Assembly: GCA_944321945.1 (NCBI GenBank)
Contig: CALUNE010000001.1
Location: 124,001 to 188,000 of the forward strand
Length of the DNA: 64,000 bases
Reading direction: 5' to 3'
From: an uncultured Alistipes sp.
Lineage (GTDB): Bacteria > Bacteroidota > Bacteroidia > Bacteroidales > Rikenellaceae
Positions 34,764-53,663 of the stretch are shown here, in pieces. The notes under the pieces are model-generated. The model searched no databases. It had not been told where the DNA came from and was given only the letters and a program-made list of their open reading frames with translations. Position 1 is the first letter of the stretch. Each line of letters starts with the position of its first letter. The position numbers and the translations under genes are program-made.

Positions 34764-37024
34764 TGCCGCGCTATGCCGATATTGTTCTTCCGCTGGCCCA
34801 GCCGGCCTATACGTTCGCGGTCCCCGAGGGGCTGAACGTGTGCGAGGGACAGGCCGTGGCGGTGCGGTTCGGACGCCTCAACAAATATTATACGGGAATC
34901 GTCTGGCGGCTGCACGGGCAGCGGCCCGATTTTCCGCGCGTGAAATCCGTCGAACGCGTTCTCTACGACGAACCGCTGCTGTCGGAGGCTCAGCGTCGGC
35001 TGTGGGAGTGGATGGCGTCGTACTATCTGTGCAGTGTGGGCGAGGTGATGCGCGTGGCGCTGCCCTCGCTGATGAAGCCCTCGGGCGACACGGAGGAGGA
35101 GTTCACGGAGGAGGAGTTCCGCCCGCGGATGGAGAGCTACGTGGCGCTGGCTCCGGAGCTGCACGACGAAGCGGCGTTCCACGACGTGTGCGAACGCCTC
35201 GAACGCCGTGCCCCGAAGCAGTATGCGGCGCTGCTGGAGATCGCCGCGGCGGGCGACGGAACGCGCATTGCGACGGGTGAGGTGGCCCGGCGGCTGTTGC
35301 AGGCCGATTCGGGCGTGCTGCTCACCCTGGAGCGCAAGGGGCTCATCCGGCGCTCGGAACACGAACGTACGCTCGAATACGGCGGTGCGGTCTTCCGCCT
35401 GCCGGAGTTGAGCCCTCACCAGCAGGCGGCACTCGATGCCCTGCGCAGTCAGTTCGCCGCGGGGAAGGGCACGGCCCTGTTGCAGGGCATCACGGGTTCC
35501 GGAAAGACGGAAATCTACATTCATCTGATTGCCGAGGTGCTGGCGCGGGGCGGCGACGTGCTGCTGCTGGTCCCGGAGATTGCGCTGACGGCCCAGCTGA
35601 TCGAACGCATGGAGCGCATCTTCGGCAGCCGTGTCACGGCCTACCACTCGAAACTCACGAACCGCCGCCGCACGGAGACCTATCTGCGGTTGAGCCGTTC
35701 GCAGGGAGGCGAGTTCGTCGTCGGGGTGCGGTCGTCGATCTTCCTGCCTCTGAAGCATCTGCAGCTGATCGTGGTCGACGAGGAGCACGATACGAGTTAC
35801 AAGCAGGTCGATCCGGCGCCGCGTTACAATGCGCGGGACTGCGCCGTGGTGATGGCGCGTCTGACCGCAGGGCACACGCTGCTCGGGAGCGCCACGCCTT
35901 CGCTCGAGACGTGGTCGAACGCCGCCTCGGGCAAATACGGGCGTGCGGTGCTGAACGAACGCTACGGCGCGGCGCGGCCGCCGGTGGTCTACATCTCGGA
36001 TACGCTGCGTGCGGCCCGTCGGGGCGAGCGCCACGCCCACTTCAACAAGTTGCTGCTCGACAAGATCGAGGCGGCGCTCGGCCGCGGCGAACAGGTGATG
36101 CTGTTCCAGAACCGGCGGGGCTTTTCGCCCTATGTCGAGTGTACGGAGTGCGGCTGGACGGCCCGCTGCCCGAACTGCAACGTGACGCTCACCTACCACA
36201 AGAACGGCCGGAAACTCGTCTGCCACTATTGCGGCCATACGGAGGAGGTCCCGGCCAAATGCCCCTCGTGCCGCGTGACGGATGTCGTTCCGGTGGGGTT
36301 CGGCACGGAGAAGATCGAGGAGGAGATCGCCCGGATCTTCCCCGAGGCGCGTGTGGCCCGGCTGGACCGCGACAGCGTCACCTCCGAACGTGCCTTCAAT
36401 GCGATCATTGCCGATTTCGAGGCGGGGCGGACCGATATCTTGGTCGGCACGCAGATGATTACCAAGGGGTTTGACTTTGCGGGCGTCTCGCTCGTGGGGA
36501 TTCTCAATGCGGACAACCTGCTGAACAATCCCGACTTCCGGGCTGCCGAGCGGGCCTTTCAGCTGATGATGCAGGTCTCGGGGCGTGCCGGGCGGCGCAA
36601 CGACGGCGGCGAGGTGGTCATCCAGACGGGCGATCCGACCAATCCGGTGATCCGGCAGGTGGCCACGGGCGACTACGACGCCATGGTGCGCATGCAGCTG
36701 GCCGAAAGGCAGATGTTCTTCTACCCGCCCTATGCGCGGCTGACGTCGATCACGCTGCGTCACCGCGATCCGGCAACGCTGCGCAACGGCATCACGGAGC
36801 TGGCCGCAAGGTTGCGCGAGCGTTTCGGACGGCGCGTGCTGGGGCCGATGACGCCGCCCGTCGACCGCATCCGGGGCGAATACCTCGTCGGACTGCTGCT
36901 CAAGATCGAAAGCGGAGCCTCGTCGGCGCGGGCCCGCGAACTGCTGAGCGCCGAGTTGAAACGTTTCTCCGAAAATCCGGCCTTCAGGGCCATAACCGTC
37001 GTGGTGGATGTCGATCCTCAGTGA
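34763..37024 (+). CDS. priA: primosomal replication restart helicase PriA
   Basis: A 753-residue 3'-5' helicase that reloads DnaB at stalled forks. Landmarks: N-terminal DNA-binding domain, Walker A 'GITGSGKTEIY' near 244-254, 'VDEEHDTSYKQ', 'LGSATPSLETW', and a zinc-binding insertion with C460, C463, C469, C472 and two further CxxC pairs. Full length. It starts inside the yitT stop codon and ends 17 bases inside comF. Linkage with dnaB 800 bases downstream fits a replication role. Confidence 0.96.
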   Translation: MPRYADIVLPLAQPAYTFAVPEGLNVCEGQAVAVRFGRLNKYYTGIVWRLHGQRPDFPRVKSVERVLYDEPLLSEAQRRLWEWMASYYLCSVGEVMRVALPSLMKPSGDTEEEFTEEEFRPRMESYVALAPELHDEAAFHDVCERLERRAPKQYAALLEIAAAGDGTRIATGEVARRLLQADSGVLLTLERKGLIRRSEHERTLEYGGAVFRLPELSPHQQAALDALRSQFAAGKGTALLQGITGSGKTEIYIHLIAEVLARGGDVLLLVPEIALTAQLIERMERIFGSRVTAYHSKLTNRRRTETYLRLSRSQGGEFVVGVRSSIFLPLKHLQLIVVDEEHDTSYKQVDPAPRYNARDCAVVMARLTAGHTLLGSATPSLETWSNAASGKYGRAVLNERYGAARPPVVYISDTLRAARRGERHAHFNKLLLDKIEAALGRGEQVMLFQNRRGFSPYVECTECGWTARCPNCNVTLTYHKNGRKLVCHYCGHTEEVPAKCPSCRVTDVVPVGFGTEKIEEEIARIFPEARVARLDRDSVTSERAFNAIIADFEAGRTDILVGTQMITKGFDFAGVSLVGILNADNLLNNPDFRAAERAFQLMMQVSGRAGRRNDGGEVVIQTGDPTNPVIRQVATGDYDAMVRMQLAERQMFFYPPYARLTSITLRHRDPATLRNGITELAARLRERFGRRVLGPMTPPVDRIRGEYLVGLLLKIESGASSARARELLSAELKRFSENPAFRAITVVVDVDPQ

Positions 37025-47879: not shown

Positions 47880-49169
47880 TTGAAGTTGGAAGAAACCGCT
47901 TGTTCATGGATTGAGTTCCACGGGTTTACGCCTCACGTCGCCATTCTGTGCGTGGTGACCGTCTTCCTGTTGAGTATTTCGGCGCTGGTGTCCGGGGCCG
48001 AAACCTCGTTTTTTTCACTCTCGCACAATGACATCAGACGGCTGCAGGAGAGTCGCAGCGGTCGCGCCGCGGCCGTTCTGCGCCTGCTGACGAATGTCGA
48101 TCTGCTGCTGGCCACGATCCTGGTGGTCAACAACCTGGTGAACATCTGCATCGTCATTCTTACCTCCGGAATCATCGATTCGCTCTTTACGTTTCTGCGT
48201 TTCGAGTTCCTCTTCAAGACGGTGCTGGTCACCTTCCTGCTGCTGCTTTTCGGCGAAATTCTGCCCAAGGTCCTTGCACAGACCATTCCCGTGCGCTTTG
48301 CCCTGATGGTGGCCCGCCCGCTGTCGGTGTTGCGCTGGGTCTTCTATCCGCTCTCCTATGCCTTGGTCCGTACGAGCAGCCGCATCAGCGAAAAGGCCGC
48401 GCACAAGAGCGAAATCTCGCTCGATGAACTGGCCGATGCGGTCGACATGACGCAGAGTTCGAGCCCCGAGGAGCATGTGATGCTGTCGGGAATCGTCAAT
48501 TTCGTCAACACCGAGGTGCAGGAGATCATGAAGCCGCGCGTCGACATGACGGCTCTCGACATCACGGACGATTACGACCACGTGAAGCGTACGATCATCG
48601 AATCGGGCTTCTCCCGCATCCCGGTCTACGAGGAGGATATGGACAATATCCGCGGCACGCTCTATGTGAAGGATCTGTTGCCGTGTATCAACAACGGGAA
48701 GGATTTCGCCTGGCAGCAGCTGATGCGCAAGCCCTACTTCGTCCCCGAACACAAGAAGATCAACGATCTGTTGGCCGATTTCCAGTCGAACAAGGTGCAT
48801 ATGGCGATCGTGGTCGACGAATACGGTTCGACGCTGGGGCTGGTTTCGCTCGAGGACATCATCGAGGAGATCGTCGGTGAGATCTCGGACGAGAGCGATA
48901 ACGAGGAGACCTTCTATACGCGTCTGGACGCCAAAACCTACCTTTTCGAGGGCAAAACCCATCTCGGAGACTTCGAACGCATCCTCGAACTGGACGAGGG
49001 CACCTTCTCCGATGTGAAGGGTGAGGCCGAGACTTTGGCCGGGCTGATGCTCGAACTCAAGCGCGACTTCCCGCGCAAGGGCGATACCTTCACGGCCCAT
49101 GACATCCGTTTTACGGTGCAGGAGATGGAGGGACATCGGATCGACAAAATCCGGGTCGTTCTCCCATGA
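47880..49169 (+). CDS. gldE: GldE-like CBS-domain membrane protein
   Basis: A 429-residue CNNM/HlyC-type protein: DUF21 membrane region with three or four helices (about 18-160), a CBS-domain pair (about 200-320, 'MKPRVDMTALDITDDYDHV'), and a C-terminal CorC/HlyC domain ('YLFEGKTHLGDFERIL'). The combination and the phosphopantetheinyl transferase next to it match GldE of Bacteroidetes, which supports GldB function in gliders; in non-gliding gut species its role is unclear (ion transport is possible). The start is TTG at 47880, ten bases after ftsZ; there is no ATG before the first membrane helix, and the frame stops at 47870. Confidence 0.83.
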   Translation: MKLEETACSWIEFHGFTPHVAILCVVTVFLLSISALVSGAETSFFSLSHNDIRRLQESRSGRAAAVLRLLTNVDLLLATILVVNNLVNICIVILTSGIIDSLFTFLRFEFLFKTVLVTFLLLLFGEILPKVLAQTIPVRFALMVARPLSVLRWVFYPLSYALVRTSSRISEKAAHKSEISLDELADAVDMTQSSSPEEHVMLSGIVNFVNTEVQEIMKPRVDMTALDITDDYDHVKRTIIESGFSRIPVYEEDMDNIRGTLYVKDLLPCINNGKDFAWQQLMRKPYFVPEHKKINDLLADFQSNKVHMAIVVDEYGSTLGLVSLEDIIEEIVGEISDESDNEETFYTRLDAKTYLFEGKTHLGDFERILELDEGTFSDVKGEAETLAGLMLELKRDFPRKGDTFTAHDIRFTVQEMEGHRIDKIRVVLP

Positions 49170-49732
49170 TGCCGCGCCTGCTGCTCGAAGCGCCGATGAC
49201 GGCCGACGCAACCGATCCGTGGACGACTCCCGAGGAGCGTTCCCGGGCGGCAACCTTCCGCAGTGAACGCCGTCGTTGCGAATATCTTACCTGGCGGGCC
49301 CTGCTTCGCCGCGAACTGGGGCCCGATCTGCGGATCGATTACGATGCGCTGGGGGCTCCGATTCTCCCGGACGGCGAAGCCTTCATCTCGGTTTCGCACT
49401 GTGACGGACGGGTGGCGGTGCTCATCTCGTCGAGCCGCTGTGCCGTCGACATCGAACCGTCTGCAAGAAATTTTTCCCGTGTGGCGGACCGATACATGAC
49501 CCCTTCCGAGTGCGCACTCTCTGAGGATCCGCTCTGGCCGGGCTATGTCTGGTGTGCCAAGGAGGCGCTCTACAAATATGCCGGTCGCCGGGCTGTCGAT
49601 TTTCGTGGCGATTTGCGGATCGAGGCGGTCGATCTTGCCGCCGGATCCCTGACGGGCCGCATTGCCGACGGCCGACCACTGACCCTCTCGGCCTCCTGTT
49701 GCGACGGTTTTCTGGTGGTTACCCTTCTCTGA
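49166..49732 (+). CDS. 4'-phosphopantetheinyl transferase superfamily protein
   Basis: A 188-residue Sfp/AcpS-type transferase that activates carrier proteins with phosphopantetheine. The magnesium-binding D95-x-E97 ('CAVDIEP') and 'WCAKEALYKYAG' with K132/E133 are conserved, as is the 'ISVSHCDG' segment. Shorter than Sfp but typical of the Bacteroidetes form. ATGA overlap with gldE (start ATG 49166, or the adjacent ATG 49169). Confidence 0.88.
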   Translation: MMPRLLLEAPMTADATDPWTTPEERSRAATFRSERRRCEYLTWRALLRRELGPDLRIDYDALGAPILPDGEAFISVSHCDGRVAVLISSSRCAVDIEPSARNFSRVADRYMTPSECALSEDPLWPGYVWCAKEALYKYAGRRAVDFRGDLRIEAVDLAAGSLTGRIADGRPLTLSASCCDGFLVVTLL

Positions 49733-49756
49733 CCTTCATCCGTCACTTGTTTTGAA

Positions 49757-49787
49757 TTACAGTGTATATTGCTGGTATACAATGTAA
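49757..49787 (+). terminator. imperfect palindrome, likely terminator
   Basis: Arms TTACAGTGTATA (49757-49768) and TATACAATGTAA (49776-49787) pair at 11 of 12 positions around a seven-base spacer, 24 bases after the transferase stop, and are followed by a T-rich run. It may end the ftsZ-gldE transcript; an operator is the alternative, given the low GC of the stem. Confidence 0.5.
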
Positions 49788-49818
49788 TAATCTTTTGTTT
49801 TTCTCCTTGTCTCTCCTC

Positions 49819-49915
49819 TTGGAAGATCGGTTCGGTGGCACTTCTTCAAAAAATTTACATATTTAGTAAAAAATCTTAATAAAATATTTGGAAGATTCGT
49901 TTCGGTGCATTACTT
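49819..49915 (+). repeat. imperfect direct repeat upstream of small ORF
   Basis: TTGGAAGATCGGTTCGGTG (49819-49837) recurs as TTGGAAGATTCGTTTCGGTG (49888-49907), overlapping the -33 region and spacer of the promoter below. The surrounding 49788-49886 stretch is AT-rich and contains no gene that I can see. Possibly a regulator binding site or a relic promoter duplication. Confidence 0.5.
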
Positions 49916-49918
49916 TTG
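49887..49918 (+). promoter_or_regulatory. consensus promoter of the small transcript
   Basis: TTTG (49887-49890), 20-base spacer and TACTTTTG (49911-49918) match the Bacteroidetes consensus perfectly. Predicted start of transcription near 49925, about 45 bases before the small ORF. Confidence 0.85.
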
Positions 49919-49968
49919 CCGCGTCTTAAATGATAAAATATTTTAAGAATTAATTAAAATTATTTACT

Positions 49969-50046
49969 ATGAAGGCAAAGATTGGTGAGTGGGTACGCAC
50001 CGCTCTGATTATGTTGGGAGAGAGCATCAAACTTCGTGAGATGTAA
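49969..50046 (+). CDS. 25-residue small ORF (unknown)
   Basis: ATG to TAA, 25 codons, too short for routine calling. The peptide begins MKAKIGEWVRTALIM and ends in SIKLREM: no signal peptide, alternating charged and hydrophobic residues with W8, so a short amphipathic helix is possible. It is supported by a consensus promoter about 50 bases upstream, an AT-rich leader typical of Bacteroidetes starts, and a strong terminator 39 bases downstream. The leader also holds a seven-residue mini-ORF (49930-49953) and a small TCTTAAA/TTTAAGA palindrome. I do not recognise it; the transcript may instead be a small RNA. Confidence 0.55.
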   Translation: MKAKIGEWVRTALIMLGESIKLREM

Positions 50047-50084
50047 ATCTCCTTTTTACAAGGACTTAAAACCGAAACTTCAAT

Positions 50085-50132
50085 AAACGGGAAAAGCCCG
50101 GCTCCATTCAGAGCCGGGCTTTTCCCGTTTTT
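50085..50132 (+). terminator. bidirectional intrinsic terminator
   Basis: A perfect 20-pair stem (50085-50104 with 50111-50130) around the loop CATTCA, followed by T residues. On the plus strand it ends the small transcript; on the minus strand it sits 18 bases after the stop of the C1-type peptidase gene and would end that operon too. Confidence 0.9.
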
Positions 50133-50149
50133 GCAGGCTTGGGGGCAGC

Positions 50150-51346
50150 CTATTTCCATCCGAGTTTCTTTCGGATCTCCTTGGGAACGGCGTTGCGGTT
50201 GACCATGATCGACATGGTCTTGTACTCGACGAACGGGCGCGAGAAGTACCAGAATCCGTCGTAGGGGGCTACGGTATCCCACGAGTTCTGCACCTTGAAG
50301 TAGGGCGTTCCGAACTGATCGGTGGCCGTGCCGACGATAACCATGCCATGATCATCCGTCGTTTCGTAGTTGTCATAGGCCACCTGGCGCATCTCCTGGT
50401 CGATTTTGCGCTCCTTGCCGGGCTTGTCAAACTTGTAGAGGGCAGCCTCTTTCTCCTTGGCGGTGAGTTTGCCCCACTTTTCGGCCTCGGTGCCGCTCAT
50501 GCTCTCGACATCGGCTTCGGGAATGATGCCGATACCCTTGGTGCGGCTGAAGCCCTTCTCGCTGACATCCGTACCCCAGGCAATCGTATAGCCGTTTTCG
50601 AGGGCATTGTCGATCGTCTGCATCAGCTCGTCGAGGGGCACGTTCCAGACCGAAGCCCACATCCAGTTGTCGGGCACCTCGATCATGAAGGGCTTGTAGA
50701 AGGGGTGGTGCGTGAAGGAGGAGAGGTCGACATAGTCATCCATGTCGATGGGCAGCGATGCGGCGAACGACTGCGGCGTATACTCCTTGCCCTCGTAGGT
50801 GAAGGTCTCGGGCATCGGGCCGAAATATTCGTCCAGAATGGCGTTGAAGCCGCGTTTCCAGGCCGTAGAGAGCGTTTTGTTGCTGCCGGCGGCCGAGATT
50901 ACGGCGTCGAGATAGGCCTTCAGGACGGCCGAAAGTTCGTGGAAATCGGGCTTGTCGGTTCCGTAGTTCAGCCCCGGATAGACCTCGAACGGTACGATGC
51001 CGTGAGCCTTGATGCCTTCGGTCACGTCGTGCGATGCACCGCCCTCGGCGAAGTTCAGTTCTCCGTGCAGGCGGACATACTTCACGGCCTTGTCCATGAA
51101 CGAATGGCGGACGATCCACATCTCCGAGAGGTGCATCTCGGGGCCTCCGGCGCGGAGGATCTCGTTTTCGAGCATCGTCATCGTCGAGTAGCACCAGCAG
51201 GTGCCGCTGCGGTTCTGGTTCTTGACCGGCGTCGAGCGGATGATCTTGACGTCGGTGAAGTGGTACCCTTCGGTCGAATCGGGCGTCTGGGCTGCGGCTC
51301 CCAGGGCGAGGCAGATCGCAAGAGCCGTAAGAAGCAGGTTTTTCAT
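50150..51346 (-). CDS. exported C1-family cysteine peptidase (aminopeptidase C-like)
   Basis: A 398-residue papain-fold peptidase with a signal peptide (1-19). Q44 and catalytic C50 lie in 'NQNRSGTCWCYS', the histidine in 'DDHGMVIVG', the asparagine in 'VQNSW'. Domain layout follows the bleomycin hydrolase/PepC (C1B) group, but export is unusual for that group and makes an oligopeptide-trimming periplasmic role likely. The start at 51346 is set by the signal peptide. It lies 19 bases after topA. Confidence 0.87.
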   Translation of the reverse strand: MKNLLLTALAICLALGAAAQTPDSTEGYHFTDVKIIRSTPVKNQNRSGTCWCYSTMTMLENEILRAGGPEMHLSEMWIVRHSFMDKAVKYVRLHGELNFAEGGASHDVTEGIKAHGIVPFEVYPGLNYGTDKPDFHELSAVLKAYLDAVISAAGSNKTLSTAWKRGFNAILDEYFGPMPETFTYEGKEYTPQSFAASLPIDMDDYVDLSSFTHHPFYKPFMIEVPDNWMWASVWNVPLDELMQTIDNALENGYTIAWGTDVSEKGFSRTKGIGIIPEADVESMSGTEAEKWGKLTAKEKEAALYKFDKPGKERKIDQEMRQVAYDNYETTDDHGMVIVGTATDQFGTPYFKVQNSWDTVAPYDGFWYFSRPFVEYKTMSIMVNRNAVPKEIRKKLGWK

Positions 51347-51365
51347 CGTATCGTTTGGTTTTGGG

Positions 51366-53663
51366 TTATTTCTTCGATCCGGCAACGATTTTCAGGCACT
51401 CTTCGAGGGTCAGTTCCTCGGGTTTCGAGCCTTTCGGGATCCGGTAGTTCTTGCCCTTGTAGGCGATGTAGGCGCCGTAGCGGCCGTTTTTGACCAGCAT
51501 GTCGGGATCTTCGGCGAAACTGCGCAGCGGCGTGTTGGCTGCAGCGGCGGCGGCCTGATGCTCGCGGACAATCTCCACGGCGCGGTCGTGGGTCAGCGTG
51601 TAGGGGTCATCGCCCTTGGGCAGCGAGGCAAACGACTTGCCGTAGCGTACGTAGGGACCGTATTTACCCAGTCCGACGACCAGCTTCTCGCCGTCCAGTT
51701 CGCCCACCTCGCGCGGCAGGGCGAAGAGTTCCAGGGCCTCTTCGAGCGTGATCGACTCGATGAGCTGCCCCTTTTTGAGCGAGGCGAAACGGCTCTTTTC
51801 GCCTTCGGCGCCCTCGATCTCGACCATCGGGCCGTAACGGCCGATGCGAGCCTTGACCACATGGCCCGTCTTGGGATCGTTGCCCAGGATACGCACCTCG
51901 CGGGGTTTCGAGGTCTGGGTGGTGATGGCGGCGTCGACCATCTTGTGGAACGGTCCGTAGAAGTCGCCGATCATCTTCTCCCACGTGATATCACCCTCGG
52001 CGATGCGGTCGAACTCCTTCTCGACGTTGGCCGTGAAGTTGTAGTCGATGATCGGTCCGAACTGCTCCTCGAGGTAGTCGTTGACCACCATGCCGATGTC
52101 CGTCGGCGAGAGGCGGTTTTTCTCCTTGCCGCAGTTTTCCGACAATTTCTCGCGGGAGATCTTTTCGCCCTTGAGCGTCAGCTGCACGTATTCGCGTTTC
52201 TGGCCCTCGCGGTTCTGTTTGACGACGTAGCCGCGGTTGATGATCGTGGTGATCGTCGGGGCGTAGGTCGACGGGCGTCCGATGCCGAGCTCCTCGAGCC
52301 GTTTGACAAGCGATGCTTCGTTGTAGCGGGCCGGAGCCGATGTGAAACGCTCCGTAGCGGTGATCTGAAGGGCCGTAAGGCGGTCGCCGGTCGAGAGTTT
52401 CGGCAGGCGACCCTCGCCGTTCTCCGCGGCCTGGTCGTCATCCGTCGATTCGGAGTAGAGGCGCAGGAATCCGTCGAAGCGGACCACTTCGCCCTGGGCC
52501 ACGAACTGGTGTGTCGAGCCCGACATGTCGATGGTGATGGTCGTACGGTCCAGTTCGGCGCAGACCATCTGCGAGGCGACCGTTCGCTTCCAGATCAGGT
52601 CGTAGAGGCGCTTCTCCTCGGCCGTACCCTCGATCGACTGGCGGTCGATGTACGACGGGCGGATGGCCTCGTGGGCCTCCTGCGCGCCTTTGGTCTTGGT
52701 CTTGTAGTTGTACCAGCGCGAGTACTTCTCGCCGTAGAGTTTGATGACCTCCTCCTTGCACTGGGCCAGCGCCTGCTGCGAGAGGTTGACCGAGTCTGTA
52801 CGCATGTAGGTGATCAGACCCTGTTCGTAGAGCCGCTGGGCCACGGCCATGGTCCGCGATACGGACATGCCCAGTTTGCGGCCAGCCTCCTGTTGCAGCG
52901 TCGAGGTGGTGAACGGCGGGGCCGGGTAACGCTGGGCGGGTTTCTCCTCCGAGCGGGCGACGGTGAACGTCGCGCCGATGCACGAGTGCAGGAAGGCTTC
53001 AGCCTCTTCGGCCGTGTCGAAACGCGTTGGCAGTTCGGCCTTGAAGAGGGTCTTGTCCGGGTCGTCGACGGCATGGAACTGCGCCACGACGCGGAAATAG
53101 GGGGTCGAATGGAAGGCGATGATCTCGCGCTCGCGCTCGACGATCAGCCGCACGGCCACCGACTGCACGCGTCCGGCCGAGAGCGACGGCCGCACCTTCT
53201 TCCACAGCACGGGCGACAGTTCGAAGCCGACCAGACGGTCGAGAATACGGCGTGCCTGCTGGGCATTGACCAGATTCATGTTGACCGTACGGGGTTTTTC
53301 GATGGCCTCGAGGATGGCCCGTTTGGTGATTTCGTGGAAAACGATCCGTTTGGTTTGATCGACCGGGAGACCCAACACTTCGGTCAGGTGCCATGCGATG
53401 GCCTCTCCTTCGCGGTCTTCATCGGAGGCCAGCCAGACGGTCTTGGTTCTGGCGAGTTTGTTAAGTTCGTCGACGACCTTCTTCTTGTCGGCCGGGATCT
53501 CGTAGACGGGTTTGAAGCCCGCTTCGATATTGATACCGAGATCCTTCTTCGCCAGGTCGCGAATGTGACCGAAACTCGATTTGACGACGAAGTCCTTGCC
53601 GAGGAATTTCTCGATGGTCTTGGCCTTGGCCGGGGACTCGACGATAACTAAATTGTCCTGCAT
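51366..53663 (-). CDS. topA: DNA topoisomerase I
   Basis: A 765-residue type IA topoisomerase relaxing negative supercoils. Toprim motif 'VIVESPAKAKTIEKFLG' at the N-terminus and 'ASDEDREGEAIAW'; catalytic Y286 in 'GLITYMRTDS'. Instead of zinc ribbons, the C-terminus carries repeats of the type 'KYGPYVRYGKSFASLPKG' and 'RYGAYIAYKGKNYRIPKG', usual in Bacteroidetes. Full length. No consensus promoter was found between it and the hairpin upstream. Confidence 0.96.
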   Translation of the reverse strand: MQDNLVIVESPAKAKTIEKFLGKDFVVKSSFGHIRDLAKKDLGINIEAGFKPVYEIPADKKKVVDELNKLARTKTVWLASDEDREGEAIAWHLTEVLGLPVDQTKRIVFHEITKRAILEAIEKPRTVNMNLVNAQQARRILDRLVGFELSPVLWKKVRPSLSAGRVQSVAVRLIVEREREIIAFHSTPYFRVVAQFHAVDDPDKTLFKAELPTRFDTAEEAEAFLHSCIGATFTVARSEEKPAQRYPAPPFTTSTLQQEAGRKLGMSVSRTMAVAQRLYEQGLITYMRTDSVNLSQQALAQCKEEVIKLYGEKYSRWYNYKTKTKGAQEAHEAIRPSYIDRQSIEGTAEEKRLYDLIWKRTVASQMVCAELDRTTITIDMSGSTHQFVAQGEVVRFDGFLRLYSESTDDDQAAENGEGRLPKLSTGDRLTALQITATERFTSAPARYNEASLVKRLEELGIGRPSTYAPTITTIINRGYVVKQNREGQKREYVQLTLKGEKISREKLSENCGKEKNRLSPTDIGMVVNDYLEEQFGPIIDYNFTANVEKEFDRIAEGDITWEKMIGDFYGPFHKMVDAAITTQTSKPREVRILGNDPKTGHVVKARIGRYGPMVEIEGAEGEKSRFASLKKGQLIESITLEEALELFALPREVGELDGEKLVVGLGKYGPYVRYGKSFASLPKGDDPYTLTHDRAVEIVREHQAAAAAANTPLRSFAEDPDMLVKNGRYGAYIAYKGKNYRIPKGSKPEELTLEECLKIVAGSKK

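Follow-up and report, generated by a model that had tools for sequence, protein, structure and literature searches.

Between a 4'-phosphopantetheinyl transferase gene on the plus strand and a convergent C1-family peptidase gene on the minus strand, a draft Alistipes genome carries an A/T-rich interval with the parts of a small transcription unit, and the question it raises is whether such a unit is a gene and, if so, whether its product is a peptide, an RNA or both. The window, the whole 64,000-nucleotide stretch of DNA that was analysed, comprises positions 124001-188000 of contig C1 of a 2.2-Mb draft genome (G000, the own genome of what follows), and the positions given here are those of the window. 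A preliminary description had listed a promoter, a leader mini-ORF, a 25-codon ORF and a 20-pair hairpin, and on direct reading all four are present within the interval it had given:

49166..49732, plus strand: 4'-phosphopantetheinyl transferase gene, the upstream neighbour outside the unit (Pfam ACPS)
49845..49886, plus strand: A/T-rich block 5' of the promoter, a possible UP-element-like or operator region
49887..49918, plus strand: Bacteroidetes-type promoter, TTTG-N20-TACTTTTG, with TTTG at -33, TACTTTTG at -7 and a 20-base spacer
49930..49953, plus strand: leader mini-ORF, ATG to TAA, reading MIKYFKN, with its start at offset -39 from the main start
49954..49968, plus strand: A/T-rich stretch 5' of the start codon, a presumed ribosome loading region
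49969..50046, plus strand: 25-codon ORF, MKAKIGEWVRTALIMLGESIKLREM, with homologues in the genus and a pN/pS estimate
50085..50130, no strand assigned: 20-pair hairpin, placed to end both the unit (plus) and the C1-peptidase gene (minus)
50150..51385, minus strand: convergent C1-family peptidase gene, a neighbour outside the unit (Pfam Peptidase_C1_2 and Peptidase_C1)

Because the unit recurs in 13 species genomes, it is more than a chance arrangement of these parts. Comparison of the 13 loci suggests, with a probability of about 0.7, that it is a small protein-coding gene, predicted to be transcribed and translated into a 25-residue microprotein. Most likely it is a microprotein gene limited to one genus, in which a minority of the related species carry it in a patchy pattern.

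Distribution of the unit and history of its site

A search with the single peptide against 101 genomes (the own genome and relatives) gave six matches, five of them real; the sixth, a weak match in G001, was dropped as chance because it lies within a 676-codon ORF, presumably that of transketolase. A five-row profile then returned 13 matches among 180 genomes of the genus, with E values from 1e-19 to 8e-15, separated by a wide gap from noise that begins at E 0.022. The remaining 167 genomes, some of them incomplete drafts, hold no match at the level of the carriers, and thus most species appear to do without the unit. In a sample of the family (268 genomes, 22 genera), the profile search at E up to 0.01 recovered the same 13 carriers only, with no match in the other genera. 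Samples of the order (393 genomes, E up to 0.1) and of the phylum (395 genomes, E up to 0.01) gave the own match together with five and three weak hits, respectively. At five of these eight (L093, L096, L120, L121 and L122), inspection found no such unit and they were taken as chance; the other three (L092, L094 and L095) sit inside open frames of 349 to 752 codons. Searches of viral contigs and of plasmid and phage records found no relatives of the unit, the own genome holds a single match to the peptide at E up to 10, and the 10 named records that carry the unit, Alistipes sp. An66 and A. montrealensis kh20 among them, are all Alistipes. Thus, within the sampled genomes the unit is restricted to one genus: in the search of Bacteroidales that the preliminary description had proposed, the peptide recurs within the genus (13 of 180 genomes), and the sampled family, order and phylum yield no convincing relative beyond it. 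At E up to 10 the peptide has no match in NCBIfam, Pfam, PHROGs or PADLOC, and none among PDB sequences, searches that are weak at a length of 25 residues. Among open-licence full texts, none of the titles and abstracts listed for small proteins in Bacteroidetes, Bacteroides or Alistipes concerns the peptide, and three stretches of its letters occur in no paper.

The position of the unit is constant on one side and variable on the other. In all 13 carriers the unit adjoins the convergent C1-peptidase gene, at a distance of about 110 to 170 bases (about 450 in G104), and that gene is present in 173 of the 180 genomes. Upstream stands a gene of the pentapeptide-repeat type in seven carriers and of the transferase type in six, the types being called from C-terminal letters, with one of each tested by Pfam. 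Promoter, leader and coding 25-residue ORF are conserved together while the upstream gene changes, in keeping with the earlier picture of a self-contained unit. On a tree of 50 C1-peptidase proteins (13 carriers and 37 others), ten carriers fall in one group and the other three (G104, G186 and G053) are scattered among non-carriers, such that the distribution needs at least four changes, two of them forced by strongly supported branches alone. The two genomes closest to G053 on the tree, G112 and G109, lack the unit, and there the pentapeptide gene is followed by a short gap and a hairpin; three further loci (L052 to L054), also without the unit, have the same layout with a transferase gene upstream. 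This patchy presence fits one old gain and several later losses, or recombination that exchanged the site. The site itself, 49733-50149 in the window, differs among Alistipes species: the unit may be present or absent, and the rest may be a transferase gene, a pentapeptide-repeat gene or some other sequence. The pentapeptide-repeat gene and the C1 peptidase were considered as partners of the unit in a peptide-immunity or peptide-processing set, an idea rejected because in the genomes inspected the two genes also adjoin without the unit (for example at L105, L113, L065, L067, L068 and L071).

The hairpin of the window is placed to serve both the unit and the peptidase gene. Its arms, AAACGGGAAAAGCCCGGCTC (50085-50104) and GAGCCGGGCTTTTCCCGTTT (50111-50130), form 20 pairs around a loop of 6, and the stretch 49921-50133 folds with z = -7.1, none of 200 shuffles being as stable; this stability is taken to come mostly from the hairpin. 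A simple hairpin scan did not list the 20-pair stem and listed another hairpin, at chance level. When perfect stems of at least 8 pairs within 150 bases of the C1-peptidase gene end were counted, imperfect hairpins being left uncounted, they turned up in 22 of the 37 genomes that lack the unit and 9 of the 13 carriers, versus 15 of 1000 shuffled stretches; many genomes thus have a hairpin here but no unit. G104 has two separate hairpins, one for the unit and one for the peptidase gene. No T-run follows the hairpin on the plus strand at L004, L007, L011 and L012, and at L008 the longest perfect stem lies elsewhere, the expected hairpin being seen by eye with one mismatch. The perfect 20-pair stem of the preliminary description is present, and the separate hairpin of G104 agrees with its picture of a unit that has a terminator of its own, but this part of the picture is weaker in the window, where the hairpin is placed to end the convergent peptidase gene as well.

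Promoter, leader and coding signature

The letters at 49887-49918, read directly, are TTTGGAAGATTCGTTTCGGTGCATTACTTTTG. A TTTG at about -33 with TAnnTTTG at -7 is the Bacteroides sigma factor consensus quoted in a passage of PMC7366714, and the motif TTTG-N19..21-TANNTTTG occurs four times in the window versus 0.08 expected by chance. The exact TTTG and TAnnTTTG pair is found at 12 of the 13 loci and is absent from G104. Mean pairwise identity was computed section by section over nine of the 13 loci, four with leader indels being left out. The two promoter boxes reach 1.00 and 0.95 and the spacer between them 0.69, and such conserved boxes around a variable spacer agree with an own promoter of the host's type. 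At the level of sequence, then, the promoter that the preliminary description had called perfect is borne out, by its match to the consensus and by the boxes kept across loci. Over the same nine loci, the upstream A/T block (0.94) and the leader (0.92) score above the ORF (0.88), and the 3'UTR falls to 0.68; conservation is laid out along the anatomy of a gene.

Within the ORF, the variable columns at codon positions 1, 2 and 3 number 10, 6 and 15, of 25 each. The pN/pS ratio is 0.31 versus a mean of 0.73 when columns are shuffled, with 2 of 500 shuffles as low; the test stands on 25 codons of related sequences, and this relatedness of the rows makes the figure approximate. The codon-substitution check suggested earlier thus indicates an ORF that evolves as coding sequence, and the outcome that the preliminary description had named as refuting it, substitutions with neither coding nor structural conservation, does not occur: the substitutions are coding-like, and conservation differs by section. 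The +1 frame of the ORF is stopped at 13 of 13 loci and the +2 frame at 10 of 13, and two antisense frames are mostly open, so that an open frame by itself says little. Across 78 pairs, mean identity is 0.85 for the peptide and 0.85 for the neighbouring C1 protein, and same-codon use is higher in the ORF (0.79) than in the C1 gene (0.68). Thus the constraint on the peptide is like that on its neighbour and not above it, leaving room for extra constraint at the RNA level or for codon bias.

The leader holds a start codon of its own, that of the mini-ORF, which is kept at all 13 loci and at 11 of them lies 39 bases 5' of the main start and in frame with it. The frame of the mini-ORF is open into the main ORF at eight of the 13 loci, giving a 38-codon ORF, and is stopped after seven residues at five, the window included; of the 11 in-frame loci, the eight are open and three, the window among them, are closed by TAA. 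In the 13-codon extension, variable columns at codon positions 1, 2 and 3 number 1, 3 and 3 (11 loci), and since there is no excess at the third position, selection probably does not act on the extension as protein. In 12 of 13 rows a consensus helix joins the start region of the mini-ORF to bases that precede the main start, one arm being missing from the remaining row, and the leader pairs have no covariation beyond that of shuffles (289 of 500 as high). One reading of this arrangement is a two-start gene with a translational switch, in which ribosomes engaged at the first start would make the second accessible or shut it off; this we regard as quite improbable. If it were true, a single stop codon would decide, species by species, between one and two forms of the microprotein.

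The predicted microprotein and its rivals

Thirteen residues are invariant in the 13 sequences (M1, A3, I5, W8, R10, T11, A12, M15, L16, G17, E18, R23 and M25), the net charge lies between +2 and +5, and the longest uncharged stretch is seven residues, T11 to G17. For the 38-residue form of the relatives, which is longer than the 25-residue ORF of the window, AlphaFold2 with an alignment of seven of the eight open sequences predicts one helix, from residue 2 to 37, with a mean pLDDT of 83 and a pTM of 0.37. The amphipathic helix proposed in the preliminary description does not emerge as distinctive, as the highest 18-residue helical moment, 0.45 to 0.55 across the 13 peptides, is matched by 146 to 301 of 2000 shuffles and is no greater than in shuffled peptides.

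If the unit is a microprotein gene, its transcription would begin from the TTTG/TACTTTTG promoter, recognised by RNA polymerase carrying the main Bacteroidetes sigma factor, perhaps with help from the upstream A/T block. The resulting short mRNA would be translated from an A/U-rich leader without a Shine-Dalgarno sequence, giving a 25-residue, positively charged and probably helical microprotein, and transcription would end at the hairpin, in the window also the end of the convergent C1-peptidase gene. The microprotein would probably remain inside the cell and act through its single helix, docked either on a partner protein or at the inner membrane surface.

The main rival to the microprotein gene is a dual-function sRNA, in which the RNA would be the product or would act alongside the peptide; its leader, mini-ORF included, would pair with targets or bind a protein, and the ORF would be minor or serve the stability of the RNA. 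The leader and the upstream block are both better conserved than the ORF, which leaves room for a function at the RNA level, and the kept mini-ORF start and the consensus leader helix point the same way. However, the covariation in that helix is within the range of shuffles, the window has no Rfam match at the gathering score (0 matches), and the ORF bears a coding signature; the sRNA explanation is accordingly held to be unlikely, if to be kept in mind. That the conserved sequence is merely gene-like, a decaying or neutral intergenic stretch, would agree with its patchy presence and the four or more changes on the C1-peptidase tree, yet conservation tracks both gene anatomy and codon positions, and between G000 and G053 the peptide is 92% identical versus 73% for the C1 protein, although between G000 and G186 the figures are 76% and 79%. 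Neutral sequence is very unlikely on this evidence.

Type I toxins are small peptides encoded in a short transcript of their own, and a type I toxin-antitoxin toxin, or a bacteriocin-like peptide, would share with the unit a small cationic peptide, an own promoter and, for the longer form, a predicted single helix. Unlike such toxins, the unit has no hydrophobic span, its longest uncharged run being too short to cross a membrane, and a scan confined to consensus promoters found none on the minus strand near it; it also occupies a fixed site beside one gene. The lack of matches in PADLOC and PHROGs, the single match in the own genome and the neighbouring genes that adjoin without the unit in the genomes inspected argue in the same direction, and a toxin or bacteriocin has, in our judgement, only a slight chance of being the answer. 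A short ORF followed by a hairpin also recalls a leader peptide or attenuator controlling a downstream gene, but this candidate was rejected as contradicted by gene order, since in all 13 carriers the next gene identified, that of the C1 peptidase, runs in the opposite direction, with a gap of about 450 bases in G104, and its probability is close to nil.

As a microprotein gene, the unit has parallels in surveys of small proteins. The GMSC catalogue counts 52,550,829 genus-specific small protein families in a passage of PMC11364881, and by description the unit resembles them in being a short ORF with no known domain in one genus; it differs from the families, as that passage describes them, in that promoter, leader, hairpin and unit-free sites are described here as well. 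It may likewise be compared, by description, with the small ORFs of another Bacteroidales genome that appear in a section of the Bacteroides thetaiotaomicron transcriptome map (PMC7366714). As genus-specific small proteins go, the unit is a good though ordinary example, and it offers a compact test case, being unannotated, in a common gut genus and naturally absent in close relatives. If it is translated, deletion in a cultured carrier would reveal what such a protein does.

Similar promoters and a putative small RNA

A DNA search with promoter and leader gave weaker matches that follow the 13 carriers, and seven of these, L085 to L091, were inspected. At L087 a similar A/T block and promoter stand 5' of one gene, presumably that of GAPDH. 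GAPDH is commonly highly expressed, and since the promoter of the unit is like the one before this gene, it is likely to be strong. L090 has only a short upstream stretch in common with the unit. In Alistipes, the conserved A/T block may indicate a promoter element. The extended promoter was also considered as the mark of a regulon and rejected, because the extended motif is uncommon in the own genome: TTAATAAAANNTTTG plus the -7 box occurs once, at the unit, and a 15-base motif, with up to one mismatch, twice. A diverged direct repeat is visible by eye upstream of and within the promoter, with copies at 49819-49840 (TTGGAAGATCGGTTCGGTGGCA) and 49887-49909 (TTTGGAAGATTCGTTTCGGTGCA), the second of which starts with the -33 box.

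At the other five inspected loci (L085, L086, L088, L089 and L091), all in other genomes, a similar A/T block and promoter lie 5' of a putative small RNA, roughly 100 to 180 bases long, whose 5' part (GAAGTTTTAAGGTTCATTTAGGTTAGTAGTTTTAGGTTGG) is conserved and is followed by a variable stretch and a T-run; promoter-like sequence precedes it. None of the five has an Rfam match at the gathering score; the sole match at E up to 5 among them is a weak miRNA match elsewhere in the L085 locus. The own genome has two copies of the putative small RNA (L117 and L118, at positions 34899 and 34281 of contig C18), about 600 bases apart. In layout alone, it recalls the multicopy FopS sRNAs of Bacteroides as presented in a passage of PMC11697453.
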